Origin: an uncultured Erysipelotrichaceae bacterium
GTDB taxonomy: Bacteria; Bacillota_I; Bacilli_A; Erysipelotrichales; Erysipelotrichaceae
Direction of reading: 5' to 3'
DNA length: 55,602 nt
Assembly: GCA_949744505.1 (NCBI GenBank)
Contig: CATJXY010000015.1
Coordinates: 1-55,602 of the forward strand
The notes below the pieces were generated by a model. The model was not told the origin of the DNA and searched no databases. It worked only from the letters and a program-made list of their open reading frames with translations. Both the position numbers and the translations under genes were made by a program. Shown in pieces: positions 29,722 to 47,774 of the stretch; the first letter of the stretch is position 1, and the number at the start of each line of letters is the position of its first letter.

Positions 29722-30720
29722 CTAACTTTCACAATGATTACAAAATGATATGTACATCGATGACTTGTGTGTCAAAGTATCTGTATCTTTCATAGATATT
29801 TCATCTACTTTCTTTTTAGAGTCACTAGCTTTCTCTATTTTATCTTTTATACTGCAATAAATCCCACATAAAATGTCCGTTCCCGATGAATGCCCAAAGT
29901 CTTTGACCTCATACATCATCTTTACAAAATTGTCATCATCACAATAAAACGAATTCAATAGTTTTTTTACTGCTTGATTCGCTAATCCATCCGCTGCCAT
30001 TCGCAACATATGATAACTGATTAAATTTGTTTTTGATCTTGCATTCGATAGAACTTCATGATACTTTTCTATAATTTTATGTATATCCATTTTTAAAGCT
30101 TGACAGTAAAAAATATCACTCAATATCAATCCACATAACATATCATCAAAACTCGGAGTTAATCCGACACCCAATCCAATTAAATTTTGTGTTTGGGTAA
30201 CAAAATCAACTTGAGTCTTATAAGATTTTTGCCAAGCAATTATATCTTCGTAAATTATTTGATTCAATGAATTTAATTGCGAATTCATTATAAAAGGGTA
30301 CATGCCATCATGTCTTCCATTTTGTAACAAAAATAAAGATAGTTCTTTAAACCTTTTTTCCACTCTTTCCCAATCCATTTCTAAGCAAAGATTCTCACTT
30401 GATCCATCATAAATTTCAAAATCCCGCAAATCAATTTCCTTATCCTCATTTAAGAAAATTTTCCCACTACTAAGAAGGATTTTCTCTTTATCAGAAATTT
30501 GAGGAAGACTCGGAAGCATGATACTACATGGCATCATGGTTTTGGTATTATCTAAGATCGTTATCAATCGGTCATTTTTATCTATGAGATTTATAGAGTG
30601 TTCAAAAAGAAAATGAACTTGTAGTTCTCTTTCATTTTTATAACTCTCTTCTAATAGCTGTTTACATATCATCTTATTTAACATATTAACAAAAACAGAA
30701 GTATTCCAATCAAGCCACAT
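29722..30720 (-). CDS. allH: DUF2877 protein, AllH/YlbF-like carbamoyltransferase subunit
   Basis: Up to 332 residues. The two DUF2877 signatures are clear: GLGVGLTPSFDDMLCGLI (about 188-205) and GHSSGTDILCGIY (about 280-292). In E. coli AllF, AllG and AllH together form oxamate transcarbamylase, which moves a carbamoyl group to phosphate during allantoin use; this is the AllH-like part. The start is uncertain: GTG/ATG options at 30720, 30684 and 30672 all overlap the permease gene, and none has a strong ribosome site, so coupling to the permease is likely. The C-terminal tail has three extra cysteines (CNHCES and nearby) of unclear meaning. Confidence 0.82.
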   Translation of the reverse strand: MWLDWNTSVFVNMLNKMICKQLLEESYKNERELQVHFLFEHSINLIDKNDRLITILDNTKTMMPCSIMLPSLPQISDKEKILLSSGKIFLNEDKEIDLRDFEIYDGSSENLCLEMDWERVEKRFKELSLFLLQNGRHDGMYPFIMNSQLNSLNQIIYEDIIAWQKSYKTQVDFVTQTQNLIGLGVGLTPSFDDMLCGLILSDIFYCQALKMDIHKIIEKYHEVLSNARSKTNLISYHMLRMAADGLANQAVKKLLNSFYCDDDNFVKMMYEVKDFGHSSGTDILCGIYCSIKDKIEKASDSKKKVDEISMKDTDTLTHKSSMYISFCNHCES

Positions 30721-32273
30721 AGAATTAATGCTATCGGGAATGACTTACGTAAAATTTTTCCTTCCTGACCGATAATAGAAGCGGTTGTCGCCCCCAATAT
30801 AAGATTGCTTGTGCTTATCGAATTTCCTATAGAAGCTCCCGCTGCTTGTGCTGCCAAAATCGCAACGACCTTATAATCTAAAAGAACTGCGGTTGTTTCT
30901 TGAAATTTACCAAACAAAATACAAGAAGCCATGGTTGAACTCGTCATAAAGGTTCCTAACAATCCGATATAAGGGGCAATCAACGGGTAAAACCCTTGAA
31001 ATACTTTCGATACCCCCATCGCTAATTGCTCGGTTTGGCCACTTCCCGACATAACTTTAGACATCATCAACAAAATCATGATTGACAAAGAAGAAGGAAT
31101 TACTTTTTTCAATGTTCTTTGAAGAACATTTTTTGTACTGCGTATCGGTAAATATTTTTTATGTATGTAATAACAAGCACTCATCACTGAAGCTCCCATT
31201 AAAAATGTTCCTGCATGAACTAATAATTTAATCGGTGAATATTTATCCACCGCACTATTAATAATCCCATATCCTGTTACTGTTTCTTTAAACGCAAAAC
31301 CGATTTCCCAACTACTGAGAAAATGATGAATCGGTTTGATCATAAGGCAGGTTATAGCCAAAATTGTCAGAATAATATAAGGTAGAAAGGCTTCTATTAA
31401 AGTCATCGAACTTTTATGTTGTGTCTTCAAAACAACTTCTCGATTCATGATTTCACTGTTTTCAATCTTCCATGGTTTATTATACATAGGTAGTTTATTC
31501 AAAAGAAAGACAGCAACAATGCCAATCACTGTCGGTATAAAGCATGCAACGGTTGGATTGACTTGACTAAGTAGAATTTCGCCCCCTCCTTGAATCAAAC
31601 TGATTACTAAGATTGCGAAAAAGCCTTTCTTTAACCCCTCTTTTTTACCATAAATCCAACAAACTATAAGACCATTCAAAAAATTAATAATCGCCAAAAA
31701 ACAGGCAATCCATAAAGCCGTTGAAAAGTATTGTTCACTATATAAAACAATTCCTGTTGTCTCTACTAACGCATCCCATGCCGCAGCTAATGTTCCGAAC
31801 GTTGCTCCCCAAGCATGTCCGATCATCGGAATCAAAACTGCATAAAGCGGTTTTACCCCAATTCCAATCAACAATGGCGCACCTACGGCAATCGGGACAC
31901 CAAACCCTGTAATTCCTTGCATAAAACTAACAAATCCAAGTCCGATGATCAAAATCTGCATGAGTTCATTTTGGCACCATTTTGACATTTTTTCTTGAAA
32001 TACCGCCATTGCATTTACTTCATTGCTAATCTCATAAATCAAAATTGCGAAAATGATGACCAAAATAATCGAAAGAGCACTCCACATCCCTTTTAAACAT
32101 TCATTCAACAGAAGTTCAAAGGGTGCTTTATAAAACACTACAGCACAAACAGATGCAATGATAAATCCGACAAAAGCTGCTTTATAAGCGGGAATTTGTT
32201 TTCCCACCATCAAAATAAGCAAAGCAAGAATCGGTAAAAATGCAATGAACCAGAGGGAAATATGAATAGGCAT
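30678..32273 (-). CDS. LctP-family (L-lactate permease type) transporter
   Basis: 531 residues, about 12-14 membrane helices. It carries the LctP-type block MQGITGFGVPIAVGAPLLI followed by PMIGHAWGATFGTLAAAW, and a C-terminal TSSTMASCILFGKFQE and GNSISTSNLILGATTA. Family members move lactate or glycolate; in this cluster the cargo may be a substrate or product carboxylate such as a ureido acid or oxamate. It lies between allG and allH. Its ribosome site GGAGAA is inside the allG stop region five bases upstream. Confidence 0.85.
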   Translation of the reverse strand: MPIHISLWFIAFLPILALLILMVGKQIPAYKAAFVGFIIASVCAVVFYKAPFELLLNECLKGMWSALSIILVIIFAILIYEISNEVNAMAVFQEKMSKWCQNELMQILIIGLGFVSFMQGITGFGVPIAVGAPLLIGIGVKPLYAVLIPMIGHAWGATFGTLAAAWDALVETTGIVLYSEQYFSTALWIACFLAIINFLNGLIVCWIYGKKEGLKKGFFAILVISLIQGGGEILLSQVNPTVACFIPTVIGIVAVFLLNKLPMYNKPWKIENSEIMNREVVLKTQHKSSMTLIEAFLPYIILTILAITCLMIKPIHHFLSSWEIGFAFKETVTGYGIINSAVDKYSPIKLLVHAGTFLMGASVMSACYYIHKKYLPIRSTKNVLQRTLKKVIPSSLSIMILLMMSKVMSGSGQTEQLAMGVSKVFQGFYPLIAPYIGLLGTFMTSSTMASCILFGKFQETTAVLLDYKVVAILAAQAAGASIGNSISTSNLILGATTASIIGQEGKILRKSFPIALILCGLIGILLFLLIC

Positions 32274-32278
32274 AAAAT

Positions 32279-33706
32279 TTATTCTCCCAATTGTTCATGG
32301 ACAAAAACACGTAACGCTTCTTCAAAAATCTCCATTGGTGGCTGAGCAATCCCTGCACCAACCTGACCGATACCCGGCTTTTTATGTGCCATTCCGGTAT
32401 TGATTACAGGCAAAATTCCGGTTTCCACGATTTTTCTTATATCAAAACCATTTGGAACTCCTTCAAAATTTAAATTCGGCATCGGTAAATTATAATTCTT
32501 TGCCACGGTAATTTCACCCATAGATTGAGAATATTCAATTGCTTTACTGACACTTCCGGCTCCGACAAAATTAACAACCGCCGGAGAACATCCCATAGCA
32601 CATCCACCGATTCCGATACATTCGGTAATGGAGCTATCGCCCATATCCCCATTCGCATCTTTTTCACTAAACCCCGGGAAATATAAACCGACCGGCATTT
32701 TAACAGGAGCGGTAAACCAACGATATCCTAAAGAACTGATGTTCAGGCCAAAATCAACGCCATTACGACTGAGGGCAGTCACTACCGTACTCTTTTTCAC
32801 ATTTCTTGCCGCATCCATGATGCTTTTAGAACTTGCCATCGCCAGATTCAAGAAGAACTGATCGTTTTTCTTAACCAAAAATTCAATAACCTCATGAGCA
32901 TACGGTTTCCCATTTACAACATCCTGTATTTCACCACATAATTGTTTGTAAAATTGTAAGCTGGCCGCAACATTCCGTTGATGCATTTCATCACCCATTG
33001 CCAATGCCTGAGCCATGACATTTTTCAAATTTAATCCTCCTGCTTTTTTTACCGCTTCATCTAAAACAGGAGCCAATACTTTTTCAATCCATCGCAAACG
33101 TTCTATGACCTTAGGACCGTTCGCTCCAAATCTCATAACTTCCCCGATACCTTCATTAATCGTACAATAGGCACGATTCTTATATTTCTCATTTTCCACT
33201 ACAAATACCGGCATAGAAGAAGTAATCATCCCCGTCATCGGACCTACAGCATGATGATGATGGTTGCAGTCAAATTGAATCTTTCCTTCCAAAATCAATT
33301 TTTCTGCTTCTTCTTCATCTTTTGCCCACCCCTCATAAATCATGGCTCCGACGACAGCCCCTTTCATCGGACCACACATCTCGTTATATTCGATTGGTGG
33401 ACCGGCATGTAAAATCATATGATCGACCAACCCCGGAACAACTTCTCTTGCCGGTCTTACTGCTAATAAAACAGGCTGACCACTCATGATAATATCCACG
33501 ACTTCTTTATTTGCCGCATCAATTTCTTCACTATGTAACTCACATTTAAACAACAAGTCCACCAATTCCGTATTCCCGCTTGCCGGTGGTGTCCACTTAA
33601 CATGAGTTATCTTCCCACCGATATTATCAATACTATCAGAAAAGGACTTAAGTCCGATATTCACAACATCGACTTCTTCCTTAAATAAATTTCTTGCATC
33701 AGACAT
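32279..33706 (-). CDS. allG: DUF1116 protein, AllG/YlbE-like carbamoyltransferase subunit
   Basis: 475 residues from ATG 33706, set by AAAGGAG nine bases upstream. DUF1116 hallmarks include VKWTPPASGNTELVDLL, NEMCGPMKGAVVGAMIYEGWA, NHHHHAVGPMTGMI and CIGIGGCAMGCSPAVVNFVG. The run of histidines NHHHHAVGPM is typical of the family and could bind metal. E. coli YlbE (AllG) is one of three subunits of oxamate transcarbamylase. The gene overlaps the end of the allF-like gene by 8 bp, and the permease follows. Confidence 0.9.
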   Translation of the reverse strand: MSDARNLFKEEVDVVNIGLKSFSDSIDNIGGKITHVKWTPPASGNTELVDLLFKCELHSEEIDAANKEVVDIIMSGQPVLLAVRPAREVVPGLVDHMILHAGPPIEYNEMCGPMKGAVVGAMIYEGWAKDEEEAEKLILEGKIQFDCNHHHHAVGPMTGMITSSMPVFVVENEKYKNRAYCTINEGIGEVMRFGANGPKVIERLRWIEKVLAPVLDEAVKKAGGLNLKNVMAQALAMGDEMHQRNVAASLQFYKQLCGEIQDVVNGKPYAHEVIEFLVKKNDQFFLNLAMASSKSIMDAARNVKKSTVVTALSRNGVDFGLNISSLGYRWFTAPVKMPVGLYFPGFSEKDANGDMGDSSITECIGIGGCAMGCSPAVVNFVGAGSVSKAIEYSQSMGEITVAKNYNLPMPNLNFEGVPNGFDIRKIVETGILPVINTGMAHKKPGIGQVGAGIAQPPMEIFEEALRVFVHEQLGE

Positions 33707-35264
33707 GATCACACTCTCCTTTATTTTGTTTCATGATATCCAAACACAGCTTGATTGCTTCTTCATTGCTGGAAGCAACAAGGATTCCTGCCTCCTGAAG
33801 CTTCTTTACTTGTGTAGAATAAACTTGAAAATCTTCTTCCGTTCCACATACCGAAGTTACAACAAGCGGAATTTGGTCGCATTCTTTTCTCGTACTCATC
33901 ACTGCATCCGCAATGACTTGTGCCGGATCTTCAAATGAACCATAACCAATTACACAATCGGTTAAAACAACTGCTACTTCTTTATCTTGCAATTCTTGTT
34001 TGATACGCTTTACTTTTTCAGTCGGATCAATCATCGGATGAGGCTTTCCTACAGTAAATTCATCTTCTCCCATATCCAAAAACAGATTCTTCATCGATTT
34101 TCTGACATTCTCCAATTTATTTACACCTTTCATTGGGGTATTAGAATATAAATCAGATAAACATTTTCTCGCAAAATACATAGCCTCATAACATAAACTT
34201 CCGCCACTGTAAATTCCTCTTAGATATTTTCTTTCTTGGCTCAAGTTTGCAATTTCATCACTCAACTTCTTCTGATCCAATGTACAAATTTCTTCCGGAC
34301 ATTCATGAAGCCCACTTAATTCTAATGCTGCAATTGCCGCCCTCTTTAAAGAATCAAAACCTTGTCCTCCGGCTTCTTCAATTAAACTATAATCTTCATT
34401 CCCAGCAAAATTAACAACAACCGGCTTATTCGTAGAACGGATAAAAGATGCGATTTTATTTTGGACTTCCATGCAAGGTGGTTTCGATACAATTAAAATG
34501 ACTTGAGTTTCCTCATCTTCCTTTAATAATTCCAAAGCATCCATCATCGTAATTCCACCGATTTCCTTTTTCGGATCTCTTCCCCCTGTTCCGATAGCTT
34601 GTGAAATACCCCCGTGATTACGATGAATAATGGAAGTTACTTCTTGTATTCCTGTTCCGGAAGCCCCTACAACACCGATACTTCCTTTTCTTATGTTGTT
34701 CGCAAAAGCTAAAGGAACTTGATTGATAATAGATGTACCGCAATCCGGTCCCATTACCAACAAGCCTTTTTCATGTGCTTTTTGTTTTAAAGCCAATTCG
34801 TCTTCAATGCTGATATTATCGGAATAAAGCATGATATTCATGCCTTTGCTCAGTCCTTTCGCTGCTTCATATTTGGCATAATCTCCCGCACATGACAACA
34901 TGAGGACATTGGCATTTTTATCTTCTTTTAATGCCTGTTCCAATCTTTTGATTTGACGGGTTTCATTTGATTCATTTTGAGTTGAAACTGATGTACTTAA
35001 CAATTCTTTTGCCTTTACAATTGAATCATTCAATACCTTCTCATTCTCTGCTTTAATTGAAATAATCAAATCATCAGACTTAGCCGCTTTTACTTGATCA
35101 TTCGATAAACCGCTTTTTAAAAATAAATCTTTATTTCTATCTGTACCCATCATGGCACTCGCTTCAATTATCCCCTCCATTGAACATATTTCACTGGAGA
35201 TTTTCATCAAAAAAACAGAATCCCGGTATGTATTATTTAATACAATTGCCCCTAAACTTTCCAT
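33699..35264 (-). CDS. allF: FdrA/AllF-like acyl-CoA-synthetase-fold carbamoyltransferase subunit
   Basis: 521 residues from ATG 35264 (TTG at 35279 is a weaker start; GAGG precedes). The architecture is that of succinyl-CoA synthetase alpha: an N-terminal ferredoxin-like part with ICSMEGIIEASAMMGTDRNK, a CoA-binding Rossmann domain with GPDCGTSIIN and IGVVGASGTGIQEVTSIIHRNHGG, GTGGRDPKKEIGG, and a C-terminal ligase domain. FdrA (now AllF) in E. coli belongs to oxamate transcarbamylase. Directly upstream is the dihydroorotase-like gene (4 bp gap). Confidence 0.9.
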   Translation of the reverse strand: MESLGAIVLNNTYRDSVFLMKISSEICSMEGIIEASAMMGTDRNKDLFLKSGLSNDQVKAAKSDDLIISIKAENEKVLNDSIVKAKELLSTSVSTQNESNETRQIKRLEQALKEDKNANVLMLSCAGDYAKYEAAKGLSKGMNIMLYSDNISIEDELALKQKAHEKGLLVMGPDCGTSIINQVPLAFANNIRKGSIGVVGASGTGIQEVTSIIHRNHGGISQAIGTGGRDPKKEIGGITMMDALELLKEDEETQVILIVSKPPCMEVQNKIASFIRSTNKPVVVNFAGNEDYSLIEEAGGQGFDSLKRAAIAALELSGLHECPEEICTLDQKKLSDEIANLSQERKYLRGIYSGGSLCYEAMYFARKCLSDLYSNTPMKGVNKLENVRKSMKNLFLDMGEDEFTVGKPHPMIDPTEKVKRIKQELQDKEVAVVLTDCVIGYGSFEDPAQVIADAVMSTRKECDQIPLVVTSVCGTEEDFQVYSTQVKKLQEAGILVASSNEEAIKLCLDIMKQNKGECDHV

Positions 35265-35283
35265 ATTCTTATTCCTCAACCTT

Positions 35284-36594
35284 CTAAAAAGCCTTTTCCA
35301 CTTGTTTCAAAATATTCCAATCACGACAAACAATTTCTCCCCCAATAATTGTTAAGGTAACTTTCCCAATCATTTCATCTCCATCATAAGGGTTATTTGA
35401 AGATTTGCTTTTAAATTCTTTTAAATCTACGACCCATTTCTTATTCGGATCAAATACCGTAATATCGGCGTCAGCTCCAATCGATAAAGTTCCACGATTC
35501 GCAAGTCGCATGATTCTAGCCGGATTCACTGTCATACAACGAATAATGTAAGAATAGTCCGCATAACCCAATCGTACCATTTCCAATGCCAAAGGAAGCG
35601 TTGTTTCAAACCCGGAAAGTCCAAACAAATTGGTTGCGGTAATTCCACCCTCTATTTCACTATCTGCATAAGGACAATGGTCAGTCGCAATCACATCAAT
35701 TAATCGCTCTTTTATTCCCTGACGAATTCCCTCGACATCTTTAACTCCTCTAAAAGGTGGCTTAACTTTTGCCCGAACCCCTTTTTCTTTAACGATTTCT
35801 TCTGTTCTTGAAAATTGATGCGGAATCAATTCACATGTAAAATTAACACCTCGTTGTTTAAATAAGCGAACTAAATCAATTGAGCGTTCACTTCCTAAAT
35901 GAGCAATGTGCATGTGTCCGTTGATTTCTTCTTGAATAATCAAATTTCTTGCAATCTCCACATCTTCGGCTACCGAAGAAATCCCCGGTAAATTCATTTC
36001 TTTTACCAACTTTCCCGCATTCACAACTCCTTTACCGGTATAAGCTTTATCTTCACAATGTAAATCAACAACTAAATCCACTTCTTTTGTTGCCTCTAAA
36101 ATATCACGCATCATCACTGCCTCTTTAATGGCATTTCCATCATCCGAAAAAGCAACCACTCCGGCTTCTTTCAAAGCTTTCATATCGACGATTTCTTCAC
36201 CTTTTCTGCCAACGGTTACCGCTCCAAATGGATACAACCGGCACAACGCACTTTCTTTTGCCCTTTTGAAAAACTCTTCAACCATTTTCACATTATCAAT
36301 GATCGGATCGCTGTTTGGCATCACCCCGATCGATGTATACCCACCGCAAACAGCACTGCTTGTTCCGGTATAAAATGTTTCCCTTTGCGGTTCATTAAAA
36401 TCTCTTAAGTGCGCATGCATTTCAACAAACCCCGGGGCAACGATCTGCCCGCTTACATCTTCTACAATCGCTTCTTCATCAATTATATTTTTTTCAATCT
36501 TGCTGATTTTCCCATCCACTATCAATAAATCCAAAAAATCATCCACATCATTGGCAGGATCAATTACCCGTCCATTTTTCAATAACAATTTCAT
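35284..36594 (-). CDS. Dihydroorotase-like cyclic amidohydrolase
   Basis: 436 residues of the class I dihydroorotase/allantoinase/hydantoinase superfamily. The metal motif is HAHLRD (H60, H62, R64), then VMPNSDP (N93, substrate contact in dihydroorotases), VAFSDDG (D151/D152), DLHCED, HIAHLGS and ATDHCPYAD. Sequence style is closest to PyrC dihydroorotase, but there are no pyrimidine-synthesis genes here; neighbours are carbamoyltransferase subunits and carbamate kinase lies in the same run. I infer that it opens a cyclic ureide (dihydroorotate, hydantoin or similar) to an N-carbamoyl compound for breakdown. It could still be the cell's only PyrC. Substrate not fixed by sequence. Confidence 0.88.
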   Translation of the reverse strand: MKLLLKNGRVIDPANDVDDFLDLLIVDGKISKIEKNIIDEEAIVEDVSGQIVAPGFVEMHAHLRDFNEPQRETFYTGTSSAVCGGYTSIGVMPNSDPIIDNVKMVEEFFKRAKESALCRLYPFGAVTVGRKGEEIVDMKALKEAGVVAFSDDGNAIKEAVMMRDILEATKEVDLVVDLHCEDKAYTGKGVVNAGKLVKEMNLPGISSVAEDVEIARNLIIQEEINGHMHIAHLGSERSIDLVRLFKQRGVNFTCELIPHQFSRTEEIVKEKGVRAKVKPPFRGVKDVEGIRQGIKERLIDVIATDHCPYADSEIEGGITATNLFGLSGFETTLPLALEMVRLGYADYSYIIRCMTVNPARIMRLANRGTLSIGADADITVFDPNKKWVVDLKEFKSKSSNNPYDGDEMIGKVTLTIIGGEIVCRDWNILKQVEKAF

Positions 36595-36613
36595 GCCATA
36601 CTCTCGCTTTCTT

Positions 36614-37691: not shown

Positions 37692-37712
37692 CAACAAGCC
37701 CTCCCATGAAAC

Positions 37713-37803
37713 AAAAGAGATAAAACTGTCTCGTTTAACTCAACAAGCTTTATCTCACCAATTCAAATATGATTATTAAAATTTATAGATAAAGCCATTA
37801 TCT
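37713..37803 (-). terminator. Hairpins between the PTS/kinase half and the carbamoyltransferase half
   Basis: Two hairpins fall in the only sizeable gap of this gene run. One is AGATAA-TGGCT-TTATCT on the minus strand (37803-37787), overlapping the stop of the Cys-rich gene and followed by an AT-rich tract. The other is GAGATAAA/TTTATCTC with a loop of about 24 nt, followed by TTTTGTTTC, ending near 37710. Either could end the upstream transcript or act as a processing stem. Both are weak. Confidence 0.4.
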
Positions 37804-38414
37804 TATAAGAATTCCTTTATCAATAATGCGGCTCTTACCGGATTACATGCTCCGCATACACATGGTTTAGCCACTTCTATGCCGGCTTGTTCCAAAGTCA
37901 TTTTTCCACTTTTTACTTTTTCTGCCAAATCATAAATTAATGTAGCGGTAATCAGCCCATGTCCACACATCGTCATGATATTCATGCATTTCTCTTCCGG
38001 TAATTTTTCTACATTTCCCCAGACTCCTAAAGATCTTGCGACAGTATGTCTTTGAAGTCCCGCTTCTTGACAACACTCCTTCGTATGTTCCATAAGTCCG
38101 GTTACAACAACACTCATCCCATTTTGTAAATCTTTAATTTCCTTTAATGTCTTGATTACATTCTCTTTTTTATCAAAGGTTAGATTCAAGACCGCTCCAT
38201 CTTTCATTCTTTCTTTCAATCCATCCAATCCTACCGAATAGATATTTCCGGATTGTGTATCTCCGGCATTCACAGCACCGTTTTTAATTCCGATATCCAA
38301 AATATCAATTAATTTCTGTTTTGATCCTTCTTTATTGACTCCTTTAACCGGCATCGCTAAGATAATGTAATCATTCTCTAATGTATTCCCTGTTCTATGT
38401 AATGTATGTGTCAT
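37803..38414 (-). CDS. Unrecognised Cys-rich cytoplasmic protein partnered with ferredoxin protein
   Basis: 203 residues. I do not recognise the family. It opens MTHTLHRTGNTLENDYIIL and contains VTGLMEHTKECCQEAGLQRHTVA, a second cysteine cluster CMNIMTMCGHGLI, and a C-terminal CVCGACNPVRAALLI in which three cysteines are spaced C-x-C-x2-C. Seven cysteines plus several histidines in a protein this small suggest metal or Fe-S binding. No signal or membrane segment. It starts 3 bp after the ferredoxin-type gene, so the two are surely coexpressed and may form one complex, perhaps an oxidoreductase or a carbamoyl-handling enzyme. Confidence 0.75.
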   Translation of the reverse strand: MTHTLHRTGNTLENDYIILAMPVKGVNKEGSKQKLIDILDIGIKNGAVNAGDTQSGNIYSVGLDGLKERMKDGAVLNLTFDKKENVIKTLKEIKDLQNGMSVVVTGLMEHTKECCQEAGLQRHTVARSLGVWGNVEKLPEEKCMNIMTMCGHGLITATLIYDLAEKVKSGKMTLEQAGIEVAKPCVCGACNPVRAALLIKEFL

Positions 38415-38417
38415 TTC

Positions 38418-39143
38418 TTATCTCTCCTTATCAAAATCATAAAGGGGTCTGCCTAGTCCTACATTCGTTTTTCCACCTGCATACATGGACAATCCCATCT
38501 TTTCTATTGCTTCATCAAAATAAGCTGTTCCATCCTCTTTTAAAAGAGAGGATACGCCGACAGAGAATACCGTATCCACTTCTTTCGACAATTTTTGACA
38601 AGATTTTAATACTTCTTCCAATTTATCCGCATCGATCAGTGCCTCTACAATTGCCGATAAAACAAATAAAGGTCTTACATCTTCTTGAATTTCTCCAGTT
38701 GTTGTATCCTTCATGACATAAGTAACCGGATTTAAAGGTTCAAAATATGCTCCGTGTTTAGCAAGCGCCATACATGCCTTTTCTACATCAATAAATGTTG
38801 TGCCGGTAAATGGTCTTCCCATCTCAAGACATATTCCGACTTTTTGATGTCCGATTCTTCCGGTAACCTCATTGGTCTTCATTTCCGCTGTTCCTCTGCC
38901 TGAAACTCCTGATTTTTCATCTACACCTGTCGGGCAACTTAGTGATTCAGCTAAAGTTCTTGGCCAGCTCAATTCTTCTTTTGCTAAAGCATTTACCGGA
39001 CATCCTTCACGAATGCAGTTGTAACATTCTACACATTTCAAAGGATCCACTTTTGCTTTATGATCTTCTATTTTAATCGCCTTCATCGGACAGAATTTTG
39101 CACATTTTCCACATCCGACACAACTTTCTTCTCTAATTCTCAT
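38418..39143 (-). CDS. Two-[4Fe-4S] ferredoxin domain protein with unique C-terminal domain
   Basis: 241 residues from ATG 39143, set by GAGGAGGAAAAGGA and overlapping the carbamate kinase stop as ATGA. The first 60 residues form a bacterial ferredoxin with CVGCGKCAKFCP and CVECYNCIREGCP, giving two [4Fe-4S] clusters. The remaining 180 residues are unrecognised: GICLEMGRPFTGTTFIDVEKACMALAKHG, a helical middle and GGKTNVGLGRPLYDF. It would carry electrons for a redox step, but the partner is not obvious; the Cys-rich protein 3 bp downstream is the best candidate. Confidence 0.82.
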   Translation of the reverse strand: MRIREESCVGCGKCAKFCPMKAIKIEDHKAKVDPLKCVECYNCIREGCPVNALAKEELSWPRTLAESLSCPTGVDEKSGVSGRGTAEMKTNEVTGRIGHQKVGICLEMGRPFTGTTFIDVEKACMALAKHGAYFEPLNPVTYVMKDTTTGEIQEDVRPLFVLSAIVEALIDADKLEEVLKSCQKLSKEVDTVFSVGVSSLLKEDGTAYFDEAIEKMGLSMYAGGKTNVGLGRPLYDFDKER

Positions 39144-40087
39144 TCCTTTTCCTCCTCGATAATTGTTCCTGCCTGACCCTTGATTGCCATGCATGCATGC
39201 TCCTCATCTGTTATGATAGAAAGGCGTCCTTTTTTAGATGTGGCAAACGCAAGTGCCGCTTCCACTTTGGGCAGCATACTTCCTTCATAAAAATGACCCT
39301 GTTCTTTTAAATTTATTAATTCTTTTGTCGATATTTTATGAATTTTTTGTTCATTCTTCTTTCCAAAATTAATACAAACATTTTTAACTCCGGTTAAAAT
39401 CAATAAAATATCCGCATTTAACTCTTCCGCTAAAATCTCAGAAGCATAATCTTTATCAATTACCGCTTCAATTCCTTTATAGCCGAATTCTTCCTCAATA
39501 ACGGGAATGCCACCGCCTCCTGTCGAAACCACGATAACACCTTGATCTACAAGATCTTTAATTACATCCGCTTCAACTATTTTTTCAGGTTTAGGTGATG
39601 GAACAACTCTTCGATACCCCTTACCGGAATCATTTTTAAAAATTACAGAATCCTTATTAGGTAATTTTTTCACTTGTTCTTGGCTGTAAAATGGTCCTAC
39701 CGGTTTAGTCGGATCCGCAAATGCTTTATCATTCGCATCAACAACGACCTGAGTAATGACAGTACATACAGATTTTTGAATATTCCTCGAATTCAATTCC
39801 GCTTTTAAGGCACTTTGAATATGATAACCAATCATGCCCTGTGTAGATGCACCATGCAAATCTAATGTTAAAGGAGGTGTAATTTCCTTGGCAGCTTCAT
39901 TTTGAAGCATTAATCTTCCTACTTGGGGTCCATTCCCATGAGAAATCACGACTTCATGTCCCATTTCAATCAAATCCGCAATTTTTTTAACTGCTTTTCT
40001 TATATTTTTAAGTTGATTTTGTCCGTTAGCTTCTTCATTTTTCTTTTCCAGTGCATTTCCACCCAGTGCTACAACAATAACACTCAT
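39140..40087 (-). CDS. arcC: Carbamate kinase
   Basis: 315 residues, usual family length. It makes ATP from carbamoyl phosphate and ADP, giving CO2 and ammonia. Motifs are VVALGGNALEKK (N-terminal phosphate loop), VISHGNGPQVG, LDLHGASTQGMIGY, YRRVVPSPKPE, VSTGGGGIPV and EGSMLPKVEAA. The ATG overlaps the PTS IIA stop (ATGA), and its stop overlaps the ferredoxin gene start (ATGA), so all three are coupled. No arginine deiminase genes are present, pointing to another carbamoyl-phosphate source, most simply the AllFGH-like enzyme downstream. Confidence 0.96.
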   Translation of the reverse strand: MSVIVVALGGNALEKKNEEANGQNQLKNIRKAVKKIADLIEMGHEVVISHGNGPQVGRLMLQNEAAKEITPPLTLDLHGASTQGMIGYHIQSALKAELNSRNIQKSVCTVITQVVVDANDKAFADPTKPVGPFYSQEQVKKLPNKDSVIFKNDSGKGYRRVVPSPKPEKIVEADVIKDLVDQGVIVVSTGGGGIPVIEEEFGYKGIEAVIDKDYASEILAEELNADILLILTGVKNVCINFGKKNEQKIHKISTKELINLKEQGHFYEGSMLPKVEAALAFATSKKGRLSIITDEEHACMAIKGQAGTIIEEEKE

Positions 40088-40491
40088 GATCCTTCACCAA
40101 AAAAGCTGTTGTTATTGAAAATGTGTCCGGAATTTTGAGAAACTTCTTTCATTTTCTCAGCCACTTCCATCATGTCATCTGTATCTAAAAAAGCGAGTTC
40201 TAACAACATTCCCAAACATAATCCTGTTACAATATTATATTTATGTTCTTTCAATAAACTGGATGAGCTATTAAAAGGAGTACCCCCCAATATATCACAT
40301 ATCACGATAAAAGGCTTATCCTTTATTTTTTCAATTTCAGCTCTGATTTTACTCGAAAAACTCAAAGGATCATCCTCGGCAAGAAGTGGAATTGGAATTA
40401 ATTTATCATTTTTTCCGGTAATCATTTCTGCACTTTTTATAATTTCCTCACAAAATCTTCCATGTGTTACAATCAATACTTTATAATCCAT
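40084..40491 (-). CDS. PTS mannose-family IIA component
   Basis: 135 residues. The phosphorylated histidine is H10 in KVLIVTHGRF, which accepts phosphate from HPr, and the family block VICDILGGTPFNSS follows. The ATG has GAGGAGG upstream. It lies away from the IIB-IIC-IID genes, with the M28-like gene between, and its stop overlaps carbamate kinase. Coupling of a PTS IIA to carbamate kinase is uncommon and hints at linked control. Confidence 0.9.
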   Translation of the reverse strand: MDYKVLIVTHGRFCEEIIKSAEMITGKNDKLIPIPLLAEDDPLSFSSKIRAEIEKIKDKPFIVICDILGGTPFNSSSSLLKEHKYNIVTGLCLGMLLELAFLDTDDMMEVAEKMKEVSQNSGHIFNNNSFFGEGS

Positions 40492-40515
40492 TGCTTTTCC
40501 TCCTCATAAAAGCTT

Positions 40516-41421: not shown

Positions 41422-41504
41422 TTTGTTCAACCACCCTCTATATAAATAGGAATAAGTAGTTGATTTATCTTTCAATAAATCAACTTACTTAATCCTTTTT
41501 TATC

Positions 41505-42329
41505 TTAAACTAATCCAACAAGTGCCAATAAAATACAAACTGCCAGCGATCCTAAAACCAACCACGCAAAGTTTACTTTCTTGCCCACGAAATAGTAATA
41601 AATAGCTACAGCAATTAAAGTTAACATTCCCGGAATTGCGGCATCCAGCTTATCTTGTAAGAAATAAACCGATTCACCGACAGACCATGAATAACTGAGA
41701 CCGAATGTAGTATATTTAGAAGCCATGCCACCCATGATTACCATCGATGCAAGAGTACATGCACTCGTCAAAGCACCGAGCCATGGAGTACCAAGCAATT
41801 TAGCAATCGCCTGTTTACCATATTTATAACCGGTATTACAGAAAATAACGATTAATGGGGTATTGATTAAGATACTGTACACTAAAATGAATCCCAAACC
41901 TGCCCAAGTCGCTCCATCCAAAGCTAATCCGATGAAGAATACCATAATTAACTGACGAACAGTTGAACCCATCAAAGAGTCACCCATACCGGATAGTGGA
42001 CCCATGATACTTGATTTAATCTGACGAATCGTTTCCGGATCAAAATCAGCTCCGTTGGCATATTGTTCTTCCATGGATAAATAGATTCCAAATGCTAAAG
42101 AGGCAAATGTCTGTTCACACAACCAATAATCTCTTGTCCTCAACAAAGCCGCTTGAAGTGCTTCTTCATCATCTTGATAGAGATACTTTAAAGCCGGTAA
42201 TGCAGCAACTGTCCAAGAATTGACATAACCACGGTCATATCCGAAAGAGACCTGATTCCAAGTATGCTGTTTAAATAAAGTTCTGATAATTAAATTTTTT
42301 GGTAACGCTCTATATTCTTTTTCTGACAT
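41505..42329 (-). CDS. PTS mannose-family IID component
   Basis: 274 residues. Family features include the N-terminal TWNQVSFGYDRGY region, the GPLSGMGDSLMGSTVRQ block (about 112-128) and two to four C-terminal membrane helices ending in ILLALVGLV. IID forms the membrane channel together with IIC. The ATG has a GGGGTGAA upstream. It is separated from IIC by 10 bp. Confidence 0.94.
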   Translation of the reverse strand: MSEKEYRALPKNLIIRTLFKQHTWNQVSFGYDRGYVNSWTVAALPALKYLYQDDEEALQAALLRTRDYWLCEQTFASLAFGIYLSMEEQYANGADFDPETIRQIKSSIMGPLSGMGDSLMGSTVRQLIMVFFIGLALDGATWAGLGFILVYSILINTPLIVIFCNTGYKYGKQAIAKLLGTPWLGALTSACTLASMVIMGGMASKYTTFGLSYSWSVGESVYFLQDKLDAAIPGMLTLIAVAIYYYFVGKKVNFAWLVLGSLAVCILLALVGLV

Positions 42330-42339
42330 AATTTCACCC

Positions 42340-43095
42340 CTATCCCATTAATTCCTTGTTCATATAAATTGTTAAATAAGCTAAGATGAAACCGAAAATA
42401 GCAACACCCAAAATGGATAGATCAAAGAATTCCATCATAAAGAATCCCAAGATAAAGAACGGAATTGTTTTTGTTGTACCGATAATTCTGACATACATCG
42501 CAAATCCCAATGCAGGCAACAATTTACTCATTGCGGTTAGTCCGTTACTAAACCATGCCGGTAATGTATTTAACAGAATTTCAACAAAGTTCTGCCCAAA
42601 ATATAAAGCAACAAAGCATAGCGGAGCACTCAAAAGTACTGCAAATAAGAACGGATAAAGTGTAGAACCAAGTTCGACTTTACGTAAATTTCTTTCTTCA
42701 ATTGCTTTTTCAACAAATGGAATCCAAATTGCTGTATTCATTGTTCTTAAGAATGTAACAATAAATACACCCAATGTAGCTGCCGGGACTGCAATTAATA
42801 ATGTTTCTTCATAGGAATATCCAAATTTAATCGCCATCGGAACGGCAATACACGTCGCCATGAAAGTATCTGCCGGTAATGCGCCTCCATAAAAGGTCAT
42901 TCCCAAAAATAAAGTATTTAATTGAGCTCCAACCAAAGCTCCGGTTGCTGCATCCCCCATTATCGCACCAATGATCAATCCTCCAGTAAGGCCATGATAG
43001 AACCATACCCATAAATAAGTATGTAAGATGTGAGATGAACCAATACCATAAAGCAATGATATGATAATAATTCGAATAAGATACAATGTATCCAT
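42340..43095 (-). CDS. PTS mannose-family IIC component
   Basis: 251 residues, about seven membrane helices. The family blocks GLTGGLIIGAIMGDAATGALVGAQL and MTFYGGALPADTFMATCIAVPMA are present. IIC and IID carry the sugar, and IIB phosphorylates it on entry. The ATG follows GGAGGAAG. Sugar identity cannot be read from IIC alone. Confidence 0.94.
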   Translation of the reverse strand: MDTLYLIRIIIISLLYGIGSSHILHTYLWVWFYHGLTGGLIIGAIMGDAATGALVGAQLNTLFLGMTFYGGALPADTFMATCIAVPMAIKFGYSYEETLLIAVPAATLGVFIVTFLRTMNTAIWIPFVEKAIEERNLRKVELGSTLYPFLFAVLLSAPLCFVALYFGQNFVEILLNTLPAWFSNGLTAMSKLLPALGFAMYVRIIGTTKTIPFFILGFFMMEFFDLSILGVAIFGFILAYLTIYMNKELMG

Positions 43096-43148
43096 AATAC
43101 TCTTCCTCCTTTTTGTTTATCGCAAAAATTCAGCTTAACAAAAGTTGT

Positions 43149-43643
43149 TTAAAAACCCGCATTTTTGCATCCTGTTTCAACGCTGACAGGTTCGCCTTCA
43201 TCCGGCATCAATTGGAAATATGCATTCATTCCACTTGCTGCCATTTCTCTTAGCTTCTCAGCATCTTCTTTTGAGATATACACTAATTTGTTTGCCAATT
43301 TCATATCCGGACCATCACATTTAATAGACCCGATTGCTAATTCCGGTATCTCAAGTCCTGCTTTAAAGGACTTATAAGCATTAGCGATACTCGCAAACAA
43401 CAGCATATATCGAGAAGTAAACCCATTATTCTGTTGTTTTAAAACAGCCTGTTCAACAGTAATGATTTCTACTTTAGCTCCGCATGCCTGAGATGAAATT
43501 TGATAGATACTTTTCATAAATTCATCTTTTGCAACTTCATCATCGACGATGCAAATATTGGAAATATTCAAATGTCTTACAAGCTTTGCACCGACCTGAC
43601 CGTGAACTAGTCTACTGTCAACTCTGGAATATACGATTGCCAT
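43149..43643 (-). CDS. PTS mannose-family IIB component
   Basis: 164 residues. The phosphorylated histidine is H14 in SRVDSRLVHGQV. The fold blocks VDDEVAKDEFMKSIYQ and GSIKCDGPDMKLANKLVYIS match the mannose/sorbose IIB family. The ATG follows AAGGAGG. The aldolase gene lies 109 bp upstream, a gap without a convincing terminator. Confidence 0.94.
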   Translation of the reverse strand: MAIVYSRVDSRLVHGQVGAKLVRHLNISNICIVDDEVAKDEFMKSIYQISSQACGAKVEIITVEQAVLKQQNNGFTSRYMLLFASIANAYKSFKAGLEIPELAIGSIKCDGPDMKLANKLVYISKEDAEKLREMAASGMNAYFQLMPDEGEPVSVETGCKNAGF

Positions 43644-43752
43644 ATTCTATCCTCCTTTCTTTTTTTGAATCTCTGATCATCGAAAGTATTGTTCTCATGA
43701 ATTCCTATGATCTGATATTCTTATTTCAACTATTTTCATAGTTTTAACTAAA

Positions 43753-44622
43753 TTAAGCTTTATTTGTAGAACCGAATACATCCATGTAATATTCGATTTT
43801 TTCTCTATATCCCTGATGGAAATTTGTATGGAAATCCAGTCTTCCTTTCTTTGGATTTTCATTTAATTTTTCAACGGCTAATTCAGAGCCTGATTTAGCG
43901 ATATCCGTTGAAACATTAATCTTACAAATACCACGAGTACATGCTTTCGCCATATTCTCATCACCCGTACCACTTCCGCCGTGAAGAACAAGTGGAATCG
44001 GTGTGATTTCGGCAATCTTATCCAATAATTCAAAATTGATATGAGGAATGATATCCTTTGCATACGGTCCATGTGCATTTCCGATTGAAACTGCCAAGCA
44101 ATCTACTCCTGTTTTTTCAATAAAGTCGGCTACATCATTCGGATTTGTTTCTGTTGTATGAGAATACTTCCCATCAATTTTAAAGTTCGGATCCCCCATA
44201 CCAACACATCCAAGTTCAGCTTCAACACTGATACCGATTGCATGAGCAGCTTCCACTACTTGTTTGGTGATTGCCACATTTTCTTCATAAGGACGAGCAC
44301 TCGCATCAATCATAACAGAGCCAAACCCATAATGAATTCCTCGCATACATGTAGCAAAATCTTTACCATGATCAACATTTAATGCAACCGGAACAGAAGA
44401 TCTCATCGCTCTTTCTCTTGCCACTAACATCACCAGTTCCAAATCAGCATCCTCGGCCACAAAATCATATGTAATATTAAAGTTCAAAATAACAGGTGAA
44501 TTTTTATGTTCTGCCGCTTCAATGGCATGTTTGATTTCATCTGCACTTCTGATTGTCGGAGCAATCACTCCGTAATGTCCTTCTCTTGCCTTGACAAGAA
44601 TATCTTTCATGTTTACTAACAT
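43753..44622 (-). CDS. Class II ketose-bisphosphate aldolase (FbaA/GatY/KbaY family)
   Basis: 289 residues. The zinc ligands are H85 (NVDHGKDF), H184 (GNAHGPY) and H214 (LHGGSGTG); the proton-donor Asp is D84; EAELGCVG supplies the glutamate. It cleaves a phosphorylated ketose to glyceraldehyde-3-P or DHAP and a second piece. Within a PTS operon it most likely handles the phosphorylated sugar from this PTS (as GatY or KbaY do) rather than glycolysis. The start has GAGG upstream. The hydroxyacid dehydrogenase gene is 16 bp upstream. Confidence 0.92.
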   Translation of the reverse strand: MLVNMKDILVKAREGHYGVIAPTIRSADEIKHAIEAAEHKNSPVILNFNITYDFVAEDADLELVMLVARERAMRSSVPVALNVDHGKDFATCMRGIHYGFGSVMIDASARPYEENVAITKQVVEAAHAIGISVEAELGCVGMGDPNFKIDGKYSHTTETNPNDVADFIEKTGVDCLAVSIGNAHGPYAKDIIPHINFELLDKIAEITPIPLVLHGGSGTGDENMAKACTRGICKINVSTDIAKSGSELAVEKLNENPKKGRLDFHTNFHQGYREKIEYYMDVFGSTNKA

Positions 44623-44638
44623 TTTTCTTAACCTCTTT

Positions 44639-45694
44639 CTATTTATTTACTTGGAATTTTAAAGCTTCGCCTTTTAAATAACGTTCAACTTCTTCCTGCA
44701 TTGCCGCAATCGTTAATCTTGTCCAATCTCCTGCTGTTCCGGCAATATGCGGAGATAAGATTACATTATCCAATTCAAAGAATTTTGAATCTAGCGGTAA
44801 CGGTTCTTCATCATATACATCTAAGGCCGCTCCGCGAATTTGATGATTCTGTAATGCTTCAAGCATCGCTTCCTCATTAATCAGTCTTGACCTGGCTGTA
44901 TTGACTATAAATGCATCCGGTTTCATCATAGCGAATTGCTCTTTACCAATCATATCCTTTGTTTCTTCCATATAACGTGCATGCATCGTCACACAATCCG
45001 ATTCTTTTAATAACTGTTCTAAAGATACTGCCTCAACTCCCATTTTTTCCGCAGCTTCTTTATTGATGAACGGATCATATGCAAGTAATCGACAACCAAA
45101 TCCGCTTAATCTTTGTGCCACTTTTCTTCCGATAATTCCAAATCCCACAAGACCGATTGTCATGTCTTTAATAAGCTTTGGATTTTTAGGGAATGTTCTG
45201 TTAAAGTCTTTAGTAATTACCATATCTTTTTTAGTAATGCATCGATGGAATGCCAAGATAAGGGATACAGTATAGTCTGCAACCGGTTCACTTACTCTTC
45301 CCGGAGAATTACATACGATGATTCCTTTTTCTTTCGCAGCATCCATTTCAACATTCTCTGTTCCGCTTCTCATGATTCCGATCATTTTCAAACCCGGTAT
45401 TGCATCCATCATTTTTTTATTAACGGCACTGTAATGGGCAATAATAACTTCGGAGTCCTTTAAACTTTCCAAAAACTCAGGTTCATAATCAAAAACTGTC
45501 GGCCCCTCAAATTCAATACGATGATCCGGAGTCGTGTAGTTGCTTCCTTCCGGAAGAATTCGATATAACTTATCTGTTACCAATTGCACATCTGCATCCA
45601 ACTCTTTCACAAAAGAAAATTGGTCCAACACATCCTTGATCGTTGCCTCGTCACTCGCAAATCTCCCATCAGAAATTATTGTTACTTTTCTCAT
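44639..45694 (-). CDS. D-isomer-specific 2-hydroxyacid dehydrogenase
   Basis: 351 residues, first gene of the PTS operon. The NAD-binding loop is GLVGFGIIGRKVAQRL; the catalytic Arg is in NTARSRLINEEA and the catalytic His in LSPHIAGT, with substrate-binding residues in MRSGTENV and GRVSEPVADY. It reduces a 2-keto acid or oxidises a D-2-hydroxy acid using NAD. The pairing with a PTS and a class II aldolase suggests it acts on a sugar-acid intermediate. It is divergent from the PRD activator. Confidence 0.9.
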   Translation of the reverse strand: MRKVTIISDGRFASDEATIKDVLDQFSFVKELDADVQLVTDKLYRILPEGSNYTTPDHRIEFEGPTVFDYEPEFLESLKDSEVIIAHYSAVNKKMMDAIPGLKMIGIMRSGTENVEMDAAKEKGIIVCNSPGRVSEPVADYTVSLILAFHRCITKKDMVITKDFNRTFPKNPKLIKDMTIGLVGFGIIGRKVAQRLSGFGCRLLAYDPFINKEAAEKMGVEAVSLEQLLKESDCVTMHARYMEETKDMIGKEQFAMMKPDAFIVNTARSRLINEEAMLEALQNHQIRGAALDVYDEEPLPLDSKFFELDNVILSPHIAGTAGDWTRLTIAAMQEEVERYLKGEALKFQVNK

Positions 45695-45869: not shown

Positions 45870-47774
45870 ATGCTTATTGAAAGACAACGGACTATTATTA
45901 ACATTCTTGTAAAAAATACAGATGTTTATACAACAGCCAAATCACTCTCTGCTGAATGTAATGTAAGTTTGCGTACTATCAAATCAGATATGCAGTCAAT
46001 CAAAGCAGAGATAAGTGTAAATGGGGGTTATATTGAATCAATCAGTTCAAAAGGATTTAAGCTAGTAATAGAGGATCCAATTAAGTTTGAAACTTATATG
46101 AATGAAATTAATACAAATTCATTAACTTATTCTTACTATGCCCAATCCGAAAGAGTCTCATCCATCATGGCAAGGTTAATAAATGATAGAAAGCCACTAA
46201 ATTATGATGATTTAGCTGATGAGTTTTTTATTTCTCGTTCAACTTTATCTAATGATATAAAAATAGCTAAATCCCTCTTTTCAAAGTATGATTTAGACAT
46301 TGTTTCGTATAAGAAAAAATATTTTGTGTTAAAGGGTGATGAGAAGAATATGCGACAGTGTATCATCAAAGAAAATTTATTAATCCCTTCTACAGGGCCT
46401 AATAACACCGATGATACCTCTTTTGAAAAGAATGTTTCTACGATTAAAAATATATTACTCGAATCTTTCATCTGTCATAAGATAATCATCTCTGATTTTG
46501 TATTCCAAAATTTAGTTATTCATATCTATACTTCAATATGCCGTATGAAACAAGAGCATTACATTGATGATGATAATGTTCTTGTGGATCCTTCTTATAA
46601 ACATATTCAACTGATTGCGGATGAAATCATGCATAATATTTGCAGAGTTTACGGAGTCCAGTTCTCAAAATATGAAAGTGATTTATTAGCGATTCATATT
46701 CAAGGAAAACGAGAAGTTTATGATGATAAGTACATTTCCAAAGAAATTGATGATTTCGTTGCCAGTGCTTTAACAACAATCAAAAATTTGTATGGATTCG
46801 ATTTTTTAGATGATCTAAGTTTAAGAATGTCCCTAGCTCTTCATATTTATCCTCTGCTTTCAAGAATTCAATCAAATCTACAGATCAAAAATTCAATCAA
46901 GTATGAAATCAAACAAAGTTACATACTTCCTTTTGATATTGCTTCTTCATTTTGTTATGAATTGTCAAAAAAATATAATATTGAAATCTCCGAAGATGAA
47001 ATATCTTACATTGCTTTGCATTTTTTAAACGCAACTAATGATAAGATTTCTTCCAAGCATTTAAAAATCGCTTTATTTTCTGCTGAAAAGAAAAGTAATA
47101 CTTTTATCATTCGACAAAAGTTCAATCAGTGGTTCGGAAAAGATATTGAAGCATTTGATATCTATTTCTTAAGTCAAAGAGATGTAAACTTATGTAATTA
47201 TGATGTTATTTTTTCCACAGATAAAGCATTTTGCGAAGAGTTTAATGTTGTTTATTTAGACTTATTCTTAAATGAATCCGATTATCAAAAAGTGGAGTTT
47301 GCCATAAACGGATTCAAAGATGCAAAAGACTTTCTCAAGAAATTTAATCGGAATTTATTTTTCAATCAAGACTTTAATAGTAAAGCTGAAATCATTCAAT
47401 TCTTATGCGATAAAGCATCCGATGAATATCAAATCGATTCAACACTTTATGAATCAATTATTGAACATGAAAATATCAACACTTCTTACTTCGGTCACAA
47501 TATCGCACTCTTACATCCGAAAGAACCGATAACAGAAAAAACTTTTATCGCTACAAACATTCTGAATAAACCTATTAACTGGGATGATAACTCCGTACAA
47601 TTGGTCATGTTGGTCTCTATTGAAAAAAATAATCCGAAAGCATTAACGGTATGGTATTACCTATCTTTCTTCATCTCAAATCAAACCATTATCGATCAAA
47701 TTTTAGATGAGCCGACTTATGATAACTTTTATCAAACATTACAAGAACTATATGAGCACATTATTAAAAAGTAA
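45870..47774 (+). CDS. PRD-type transcriptional activator (MtlR/LicR architecture)
   Basis: 634 residues. Two winged-helix motifs come first (residues 8-45 with CNVSLRTIKSDM, and 109-137 with DEFFISRSTLSNDI), then PRD1 with H218 and H276, and PRD2 with H325 and H384: all four PRD histidines are kept. An EIIB-like domain (about 398-480) lacks the usual P-loop cysteine (ALFSAEKKS). The C-terminal EIIA-like domain (490-634) keeps H549 in IALLHP. Phosphorylation by HPr and by the PTS would set its activity. It is divergent from the 17-gene run and its most probable regulator. No RNA antiterminator domain, so it acts on DNA. Confidence 0.93.
   Translation: MLIERQRTIINILVKNTDVYTTAKSLSAECNVSLRTIKSDMQSIKAEISVNGGYIESISSKGFKLVIEDPIKFETYMNEINTNSLTYSYYAQSERVSSIMARLINDRKPLNYDDLADEFFISRSTLSNDIKIAKSLFSKYDLDIVSYKKKYFVLKGDEKNMRQCIIKENLLIPSTGPNNTDDTSFEKNVSTIKNILLESFICHKIIISDFVFQNLVIHIYTSICRMKQEHYIDDDNVLVDPSYKHIQLIADEIMHNICRVYGVQFSKYESDLLAIHIQGKREVYDDKYISKEIDDFVASALTTIKNLYGFDFLDDLSLRMSLALHIYPLLSRIQSNLQIKNSIKYEIKQSYILPFDIASSFCYELSKKYNIEISEDEISYIALHFLNATNDKISSKHLKIALFSAEKKSNTFIIRQKFNQWFGKDIEAFDIYFLSQRDVNLCNYDVIFSTDKAFCEEFNVVYLDLFLNESDYQKVEFAINGFKDAKDFLKKFNRNLFFNQDFNSKAEIIQFLCDKASDEYQIDSTLYESIIEHENINTSYFGHNIALLHPKEPITEKTFIATNILNKPINWDDNSVQLVMLVSIEKNNPKALTVWYYLSFFISNQTIIDQILDEPTYDNFYQTLQELYEHIIKK

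Follow-up and report, generated by a model that had tools for sequence, protein, structure and literature searches.

A paired cysteine protein and two-cluster ferredoxin fusion, a possible family of ferredoxin-linked Fe-S oxidoreductases, in an operon with AllFGH genes

Two adjacent genes of an uncultured Erysipelotrichaceae bacterium encode proteins, here called P1 and P2, which judging by their sequences are cognate subunits that form an obligate pair and diverge together. The chances seem about even that the pair represents a family of two-subunit ferredoxin-linked Fe-S oxidoreductases for small carboxylates or their derivatives. P1 is predicted to be the catalytic, Fe-S-carrying subunit, and P2 the electron-transfer or substrate subunit. 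The original prediction of an undescribed redox-type unit of two proteins is supported in that the genes encode a strictly paired Fe-S/redox-type unit in an operon with AllF, AllG, AllH, and carbamate kinase. The whole stretch of DNA that was analysed, 55,602 nucleotides, is called the window, and its relevant features are as follows.

29722..30720, minus strand, AllH subunit (PF11392, 83 bits)
30678..32273, minus strand, LctP-family permease (PF02652, 241 bits)
32279..33712, minus strand, AllG subunit (PF06545, 293 bits)
33699..35279, minus strand, AllF (FdrA) subunit of an oxamate-carbamoyltransferase-type enzyme (NF004760, 492 bits, over cut-off)
35284..36594, minus strand, dihydroorotase-like cyclic amidohydrolase (the biosynthetic PyrC is a different gene, on contig C23)
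36614..37697, minus strand, two small proteins of 178 and 187 aa, probably in the membrane, encoded between P1 and the hydrolase; not in the G865 operon
37803..38414, minus strand, P1 (203 aa, ATG start at 38414; family-conserved MTHxLHR N-terminus, TMCGHGLI, and KPCxCGxxNxxRA)
38415..38417, minus strand, gap of 3 bp between P2 and P1
38418..39143, minus strand, P2 (two [4Fe-4S] ferredoxin motifs and an unnamed domain of about 180 aa with GRGTxExKTNDVTGR, GRP, and GLGRP)
39140..40087, minus strand, carbamate kinase, arcC (TIGR00746, 405 bits, over cut-off)
40084..40491, minus strand, PTS EIIA of the mannose family
41505..43643, minus strand, PTS EIID, EIIC, and EIIB genes of the mannose/sorbose family
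43753..44622, minus strand, class II fructose-bisphosphate-type aldolase
44639..45694, minus strand, D-2-hydroxyacid dehydrogenase
45870..47774, plus strand, divergent PRD-domain regulator with a counterpart in G865

Read along the minus strand, the operon encodes the D-2-hydroxyacid dehydrogenase, the class II aldolase, EIIB-EIIC-EIID, a 319-aa protein, EIIA, carbamate kinase, P2, P1, the two small proteins, the hydrolase, AllF, AllG, the LctP permease, and AllH. No gene for a dedicated redox partner was found in it. The original prediction had placed a pair of open reading frames 3 bp apart at 37803-39143, and both were found there on the minus strand. The ATG start of P2 at 39143 is internal to a longer listed open reading frame starting at 39194. 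The predicted coupling to carbamate kinase is seen in the window as a 4-bp overlap between P2 and the stop of the kinase gene (39140-39143), but it is not kept in the syntenic operon of G865, a genome from another genus of the same family. Compared with the G865 copies, dN/dS is about 0.06 for P1 and about 0.09 for P2, with dS near saturation. Because of these low values, and because homologous pairs are found in many genomes, P1 and P2 are not chance open reading frames.

The operon order is kept in G865, where only ArcC, the 319-aa protein, and the two small proteins are missing; given their absence there, the two small proteins are probably not part of the P2-P1 unit. The identities between the two operons are 81% for P1, 77% for P2, 76% for the hydrolase, 73% for AllG, 62% for AllF, 45% for LctP, 44% for EIIA, and 29% for AllH, and since P1 and P2 have the highest values, the pair lies at the conserved core of the operon. 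The three unnamed proteins of the window that are missing from the G865 operon (40516-41475 and 36614-37697) are probably all membrane proteins. It can also be noted that the mannose-family PTS, the class II aldolase, and the D-2-hydroxyacid dehydrogenase share a syntenic operon (window 29722-45694) with the ureide genes; the substrate of the PTS would be what links sugar and ureide chemistry.

When 53 P1 members were scanned singly against Pfam-A (Pfam 2025) and NCBIfam (2026), no match over cut-off was obtained. The best single family match is SHOCT-like (E 6e-4, under its cut-off), and each family matches at most six of the 53 members. The C-terminal domain of P2 likewise gave no match over cut-off in either library (54 members scanned singly); its best single match has an E of 0.0024, and each family matches at most four members. 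The N-terminus of P2 is a 2[4Fe-4S] ferredoxin, with PF12837, PF00037, PF13237, and PF12838 over cut-off. The second protein had been predicted to combine two [4Fe-4S] sites with a domain of about 180 residues that could not be named, and indeed two four-Cys sites are present, followed by a C-terminal domain without a family match. Sequence searches against the PDB gave only chance matches for P1 and P2 outside the ferredoxin motifs of P2. Outside these motifs no well-known enzyme was matched in Pfam, NCBIfam, or the PDB sequences, in line with what had been predicted. Pfam detects no flavin domain in either protein (Fer4-type domains only in P2, none in P1), and the FMN-binding dihydroorotate-dehydrogenase-like domain is also absent by Pfam, which separates the pair from ferredoxin-dependent dihydropyrimidine dehydrogenase. 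Searches of open-access text found no literature on the P2-P1 pair, which is weak evidence of absence, as unnamed proteins are hard to find by words.

A relationship between P1 and DUF2099 (PF09872), presumably methanogenesis marker 8, was suspected from the CGH-type motif but not supported by the HMM matches; one of the 53 members matches, with an E of 0.021 and 14.5 bits against a threshold of 25 bits. When 12 genomes were scanned, including 11 with many P1 copies, the same single P1 locus was the only one found at E up to 10. Homology between the N-terminal half of P1 and the C-terminal domain of P2 is not claimed either; the second beta-alpha-beta unit is in register, but the hhalign probability is about 1% (E 0.05-0.09).

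AlphaFold2 models of both proteins were built with three sequences. In the P1 model (pLDDT 73.8, pTM 0.71) the N-terminal half is alpha/beta, and the Cys-bearing C-terminal half is helical. The P2 model (pLDDT 62.2, pTM 0.59) is trustworthy only at residues 100-220, approximately, where it is ferredoxin-like/ACT-like; the ferredoxin part is mostly below 50. Foldseek gave no match at E ≤ 0.001 for either model, and the P2 matches include McrD at an insignificant E of 0.05. The best VIA Z values are 6.9 and 6.5 for the P1 and P2 models, i.e. at the level of a common arrangement and obtained with models that are middling.

P1 of the window contains seven Cys residues (114, 115, 143, 150, 185, 187, and 190), the predicted CVCGACNP motif among them. 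The description of P1 as a seven-cysteine protein holds for the window, but only three of the residues are invariant in the family. C150, C185, and C187 are kept in all 76 distinct full-length P1 sequences, as are H152 and R7, and H123 is kept in 74 of them. C115 is found in 54 and C114 in 30 of the 76, while C143 and C190 are not conserved, each being Cys in one of 64 sequences of a smaller set. Each of the eight ferredoxin Cys of P2 is kept in 61-63 of 63 sequences, and GRGT, E88, K90, N92, G110-R111, and K226 of its new domain are invariant among 54. The three invariant Cys of P1 point to a metal site, either a [4Fe-4S] cluster in which one iron is open or a metal bound by Cys3-His, and the conserved residues fit a putative catalytic Fe-S site in P1 that would be fed by P2. 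The three Cys and a His might also bind Zn, which counts against an oxidoreductase.

The first relatives were found in L002, a Peptococcaceae MAG, and L003, a deltaproteobacterial MAG, with P2 directly upstream of P1 in both. Profile searches found P1 in 21 of 198 genomes, about a tenth, from the phylum to which the genome of L003 belongs, and in 21 of 299, about a fourteenth, from that of L002, one of the latter (G606) being doubtful since the P1 match has an E of 2e-4 and P2 was not found there. There are up to nine P1 matches per genome. In the window's own class P1 is rare (1/296 genomes), and it was found in five of 244 genomes of the family. In a phylum sample it was found in one of 392, when three weak partial matches are set aside (E 2e-4 to 8e-4; they cover model positions 16-120, have an in-frame TGA, and lack the Cys region). 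Two scans found no viral relatives of the pair.

Six-frame HMM searches identified 79 P1 stretches in 69 loci. P2 is located directly upstream on the same strand in 78 cases and directly downstream in the remaining one (L114). The gaps between P2 and P1 range from -68 to 119 bp and are mostly -4 to 20 (59 pairs, gene-call set). The P1 and P2 distances are correlated over the 59 pairs (r 0.76, reached in 0 of 2000 permutations), and also in 46 comparisons of paralogues within genomes (r 0.92). At L087:6578-7043 an intact P2-P1 pair is closely preceded by a second P2-like stretch that is broken into two pieces.

The gene neighbourhoods were tabulated for the 56 of 63 loci that had usable gene calls, using a simple longest-ORF filter. 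The filter gave no pair in L068, L072, L092, L107, and L114, and L079 and L081 were poorly called; all seven proved to have the pair in the six-frame search. Of the 56 loci, 35 contain a gene for a TTT or TRAP carboxylate transporter. In 18 loci TctC is one of the two nearest genes, and in three it lies at least five genes away (Fisher p 5e-4, kinship ignored). An FAD-NAD(P) oxidoreductase (FNOR) is found in 11 loci, always within two genes and never at a distance of at least five (p 4e-4). CODH-like proteins are encoded in 10 loci, CooF-like in 11, AOR in eight, and GntR in 16. FNOR, CooF-like, and/or CODH-like genes adjoin the pair in 12 loci, and this set recurs in three separate P1 clades (FastTree, midpoint-rooted, without support values). 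Other neighbours, some named by eye where no family check was made, are PdxA, IlvD, 3-hydroxyisobutyrate-type dehydrogenases, LarA, CaiB, a TPP enzyme, an old-yellow-enzyme-type FMN oxidoreductase, and PucR. In G1007 and G1008 the pair lies beside an Ldh_2-type dehydrogenase (Pfam-checked in G1008 only) and a probable LysR regulator. According to the neighbour tables the contexts share no catabolic enzyme, the recurrent genes being transporters and regulators. The neighbourhoods look as would be expected of a substrate-specific redox enzyme family, which is not proof.

The CODH/prismane-family neighbours (422-573 aa; L109:5411-6976, L070:14111-15580, L084:4516-6003, and seven more loci) have four invariant Cys among the 10 members, which in L109 are C48, C51, C56, and C70. 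The C-cluster ligands of CODH are presumably provided by the motifs HGHNP, ICDTG, AGCNN, and TGCGAG. In the member aligned to CODH-2, HGHNP is replaced by AGLSP, AGCNN by GGAGN, and TGCGAG by YGNAAV, and ICDTG is lost too. With these Cys/His ligands missing, the proteins do not qualify as Ni-CODH; they seem to have a CODH fold without the CO site and are unlikely to oxidize CO. The lack of a C-cluster in CODH-like proteins would be surprising in its own right, apart from the pair. At L176:8308-12481 and L177:5739-11573, AllF/AllG homologues adjoin a gene of the acetate kinase family (PF00871) instead of carbamate kinase, along with HIBADH- or IlvD-like genes, and the AllFG enzymes there may produce an acyl phosphate other than carbamoyl phosphate.

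The pairing and co-divergence, the invariant P1 residues, and the ferredoxin Cys of P2 all count for reading the pair as an oxidoreductase. So do the redox neighbours (FNOR, CODH-like, CooF-like, AOR) together with TTT/TRAP import, and the conservation of the operon order in G865 with P1 as the most conserved protein. Against it count that the pair shows neither a flavin nor a known redox-catalytic domain, that the middling structure models have no significant fold match, that FNOR is missing nearby in 45 of the 56 loci and a redox partner gene from the window operon, and that the contexts have transporters and regulators, not a catabolic enzyme, in common. An unlikely alternative is that P1 is a redox-neutral Fe-S lyase, hydratase, or isomerase, where a [4Fe-4S] cluster on the three Cys would be an aconitase-type Lewis acid and the P2 clusters would keep it reduced or be structural. 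That P1 has exactly three invariant Cys is as such an enzyme would require, and IlvD, PdxA, Ldh_2, the 3-hydroxyisobutyrate-dehydrogenase type, and LarA are neighbours pointing to hydroxy-acid chemistry. A hydro-lyase would, however, have no need of an obligate partner with two further low-potential clusters; no known dehydratase family is matched in sequence, and the recurrence of the NAD(P)H/Fe-S module speaks for a supply of electrons. Release of CO by the pair, with removal by the adjoining CODH-like protein, is hardly credible. CODH-like, CooF-like, and FNOR genes do adjoin the pair in 10-11 of the 56 loci, but the CODH-like proteins retain only the four invariant Cys, and this reading was rejected since the C-cluster motifs are missing.

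It is also quite unlikely that the pair converts no substrate and serves in substrate or redox sensing, cluster delivery, or regulation of uptake or of another enzyme. Such a role could explain why very different enzymes accompany P2-P1 and why GntR is one of the two genes closest to the pair in 11 of the 56 loci, and in the models the N-terminal half of P1 and the C-terminal domain of P2 appear ferredoxin-like and PII- or ACT-like, a regulator-type arrangement. These fold matches only reach the level of a common arrangement, though (Z below 7), a DNA-binding domain is missing, and a PRD regulator already belongs to the window operon. Substrate-specific catalysis is also a better fit for the divergent and co-diverging copies, of which a genome can have up to nine. 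A sulfur-inserting enzyme working like L-aspartate semialdehyde sulfurtransferase, which consists of a COG1900 protein and a small NIL-ferredoxin, is very improbable. The layout of a Cys protein and a small double-cluster ferredoxin with an ACT-like domain does seem to be shared, as far as the P2 model and the description in PMC12068725 go. But COG1900 (HcyBio) is not among the Pfam and NCBIfam matches listed for the 53 P1 members (the best 25 of 32 and of 50 families by member count), and the neighbours are genes for uptake and catabolism, not thiol biosynthesis.

The original prediction further held that the pair adds a step to the allantoin route, and this was not upheld. The hydrolase is dihydroorotase-like, and most copies of the pair lie beside TTT/TRAP transporters and quite different enzymes. 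Among the 244 genomes of the family, AllG is found in 32 and P1 in five, and three genomes (G000, G865, and G1008) have both. The proposed co-occurrence with AllFGH genes is thus limited to three of 32 AllG genomes, with linkage in two, as AllG and P1 are on different contigs in G1008; P1/P2 are missing from the other 29. Twenty AllG regions from 18 genomes without P1 have other operon types and none of the window type, so that no non-homologous substitute for the pair, which was also considered, could be named for other AllFGH operons. Allantoin metabolism does not in general include the P2-P1 pair.

In the window AllF, AllG, and AllH are encoded together, as in an oxamate carbamoyltransferase AllFGH system, and the operon seems to degrade a cyclic ureide. 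Against PDB sequences the hydrolase scores 354 bits with dihydroorotases and 120 bits with allantoinase. It is not recognized as an allantoinase by TIGR03178 (209 bits, cut-off 357.85), while it passes the subfamily-domain model TIGR00857 (348, cut-off 279) and, among the matches listed, stays below the PRK09357 equivalog cut-offs. It is the second dihydroorotase-type enzyme of the genome. The other, PyrC, is encoded on another contig in a pyrB-pyrC-carA-carB-like operon (pyr/car names by eye) and is the probable biosynthetic dihydroorotase, the window copy then being a catabolic paralogue. Where the aligned dihydroorotase has DHAPH, the His of which presumably helps to bind the substrate carboxylate, the window hydrolase has DHCPY; a related cyclic ureide is for this reason a likelier substrate than dihydroorotate.

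If the pair is an oxidoreductase, P1 would carry a [4Fe-4S] or other metal site on C150, C185, and C187, perhaps together with H123 or H152, and one coordination position would be kept free for the substrate. An acidic substrate might be held by the basic N-terminal MTHxLHRxG of P1 and the GRGT/GRP motifs of P2. The two [4Fe-4S] clusters of P2 would carry low-potential electrons between P1 and external carriers, for which ferredoxin, aldehyde:ferredoxin oxidoreductase, or the CooF/FAD-NAD(P)H oxidoreductase module are candidates, and the substrate would differ among paralogues. In the window, an imported cyclic ureide might first be reduced by P2-P1. Its ring would then be opened by the dihydroorotase-like hydrolase, and AllFGH and carbamate kinase would turn the carbamoyl group into carbamoyl phosphate and ATP. 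This specific reduction step, suggested by analogy, is rather doubtful. The reductive direction is the most likely one in the window operon because of the analogy with ferredoxin-dependent reductases preceding cyclic amidohydrolases (PMC12507026).

A wider proposal, put forward only tentatively, is that P2-P1 constitutes a new flavin-free two-subunit ferredoxin-dependent class, in which the catalytic subunit has a three-Cys Fe-S site, a 2[4Fe-4S] subunit is dedicated to it, and a genome has up to nine substrate-specific copies. In several lineages it would be powered by NAD(P)H via FNOR, CooF, and a CODH-fold protein turned into an electron-transfer part after loss of the C-cluster, and in the window it would supply the missing reductive step of an undescribed PTS-linked route from cyclic ureides to carbamoyl phosphate. 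That a pair invisible to Pfam, NCBIfam, and the PDB sequences is yet widespread and multi-copy suggests that anaerobic carboxylate chemistry has a branch not yet assigned. The substrate of each copy is limited by its operon, which makes the function directly testable.

Several known systems share features with the pair. The FNOR, CooF-like, and/or CODH-like genes near it are reminiscent of the CooF/FNOR modules of Ni-CODH clusters, but the CODH-like neighbours lack the C-cluster motifs, unlike the mini-CooS described in PMC8776680, which has a complete metal-cluster motif. In pyrimidine and urate breakdown, the ferredoxin-dependent reductases PydAc, UacX, and YgfK precede cyclic amidohydrolases, and as with these and with ferredoxin-dependent dihydropyrimidine dehydrogenase, the neighbourhood of the window pair includes genes for a cyclic amidohydrolase, a carbamoyltransferase, and carbamate kinase; those described in PMC12507026 are flavo-Fe-S proteins, whereas P1 and P2 have no flavin domain detectable by Pfam. 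The window operon has homologues of AllF, AllG, AllH, and ArcC like the E. coli AllFGH and carbamate kinase system (PMC11326118), in the main text of which the word ferredoxin does not occur. It differs from that system in the dihydroorotase-like hydrolase and in the presence of a PTS and an aldolase. L-aspartate semialdehyde sulfurtransferase (L-ASST), formed by MA1821 (COG1900) and MA1822 (NIL-ferredoxin), is described in PMC12068725 as having two neighbouring subunits, one of them a Cys-dependent protein and the other a small ferredoxin extended by an ACT-like domain, and is like P2-P1 found in anaerobes. P1 and P2 differ from it in having no sequence match to L-ASST, another Cys pattern, and a catabolic context with transporters. 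In P2, moreover, the extra domain follows the ferredoxin, which is the reverse of the domain order in NIL-ferredoxin. The architecture of P2-P1 thus appears to resemble that of L-ASST without a relation in sequence. The reaction of the pair could still prove to be a familiar one, and its architecture would place it among the two-subunit ferredoxin-linked enzymes.
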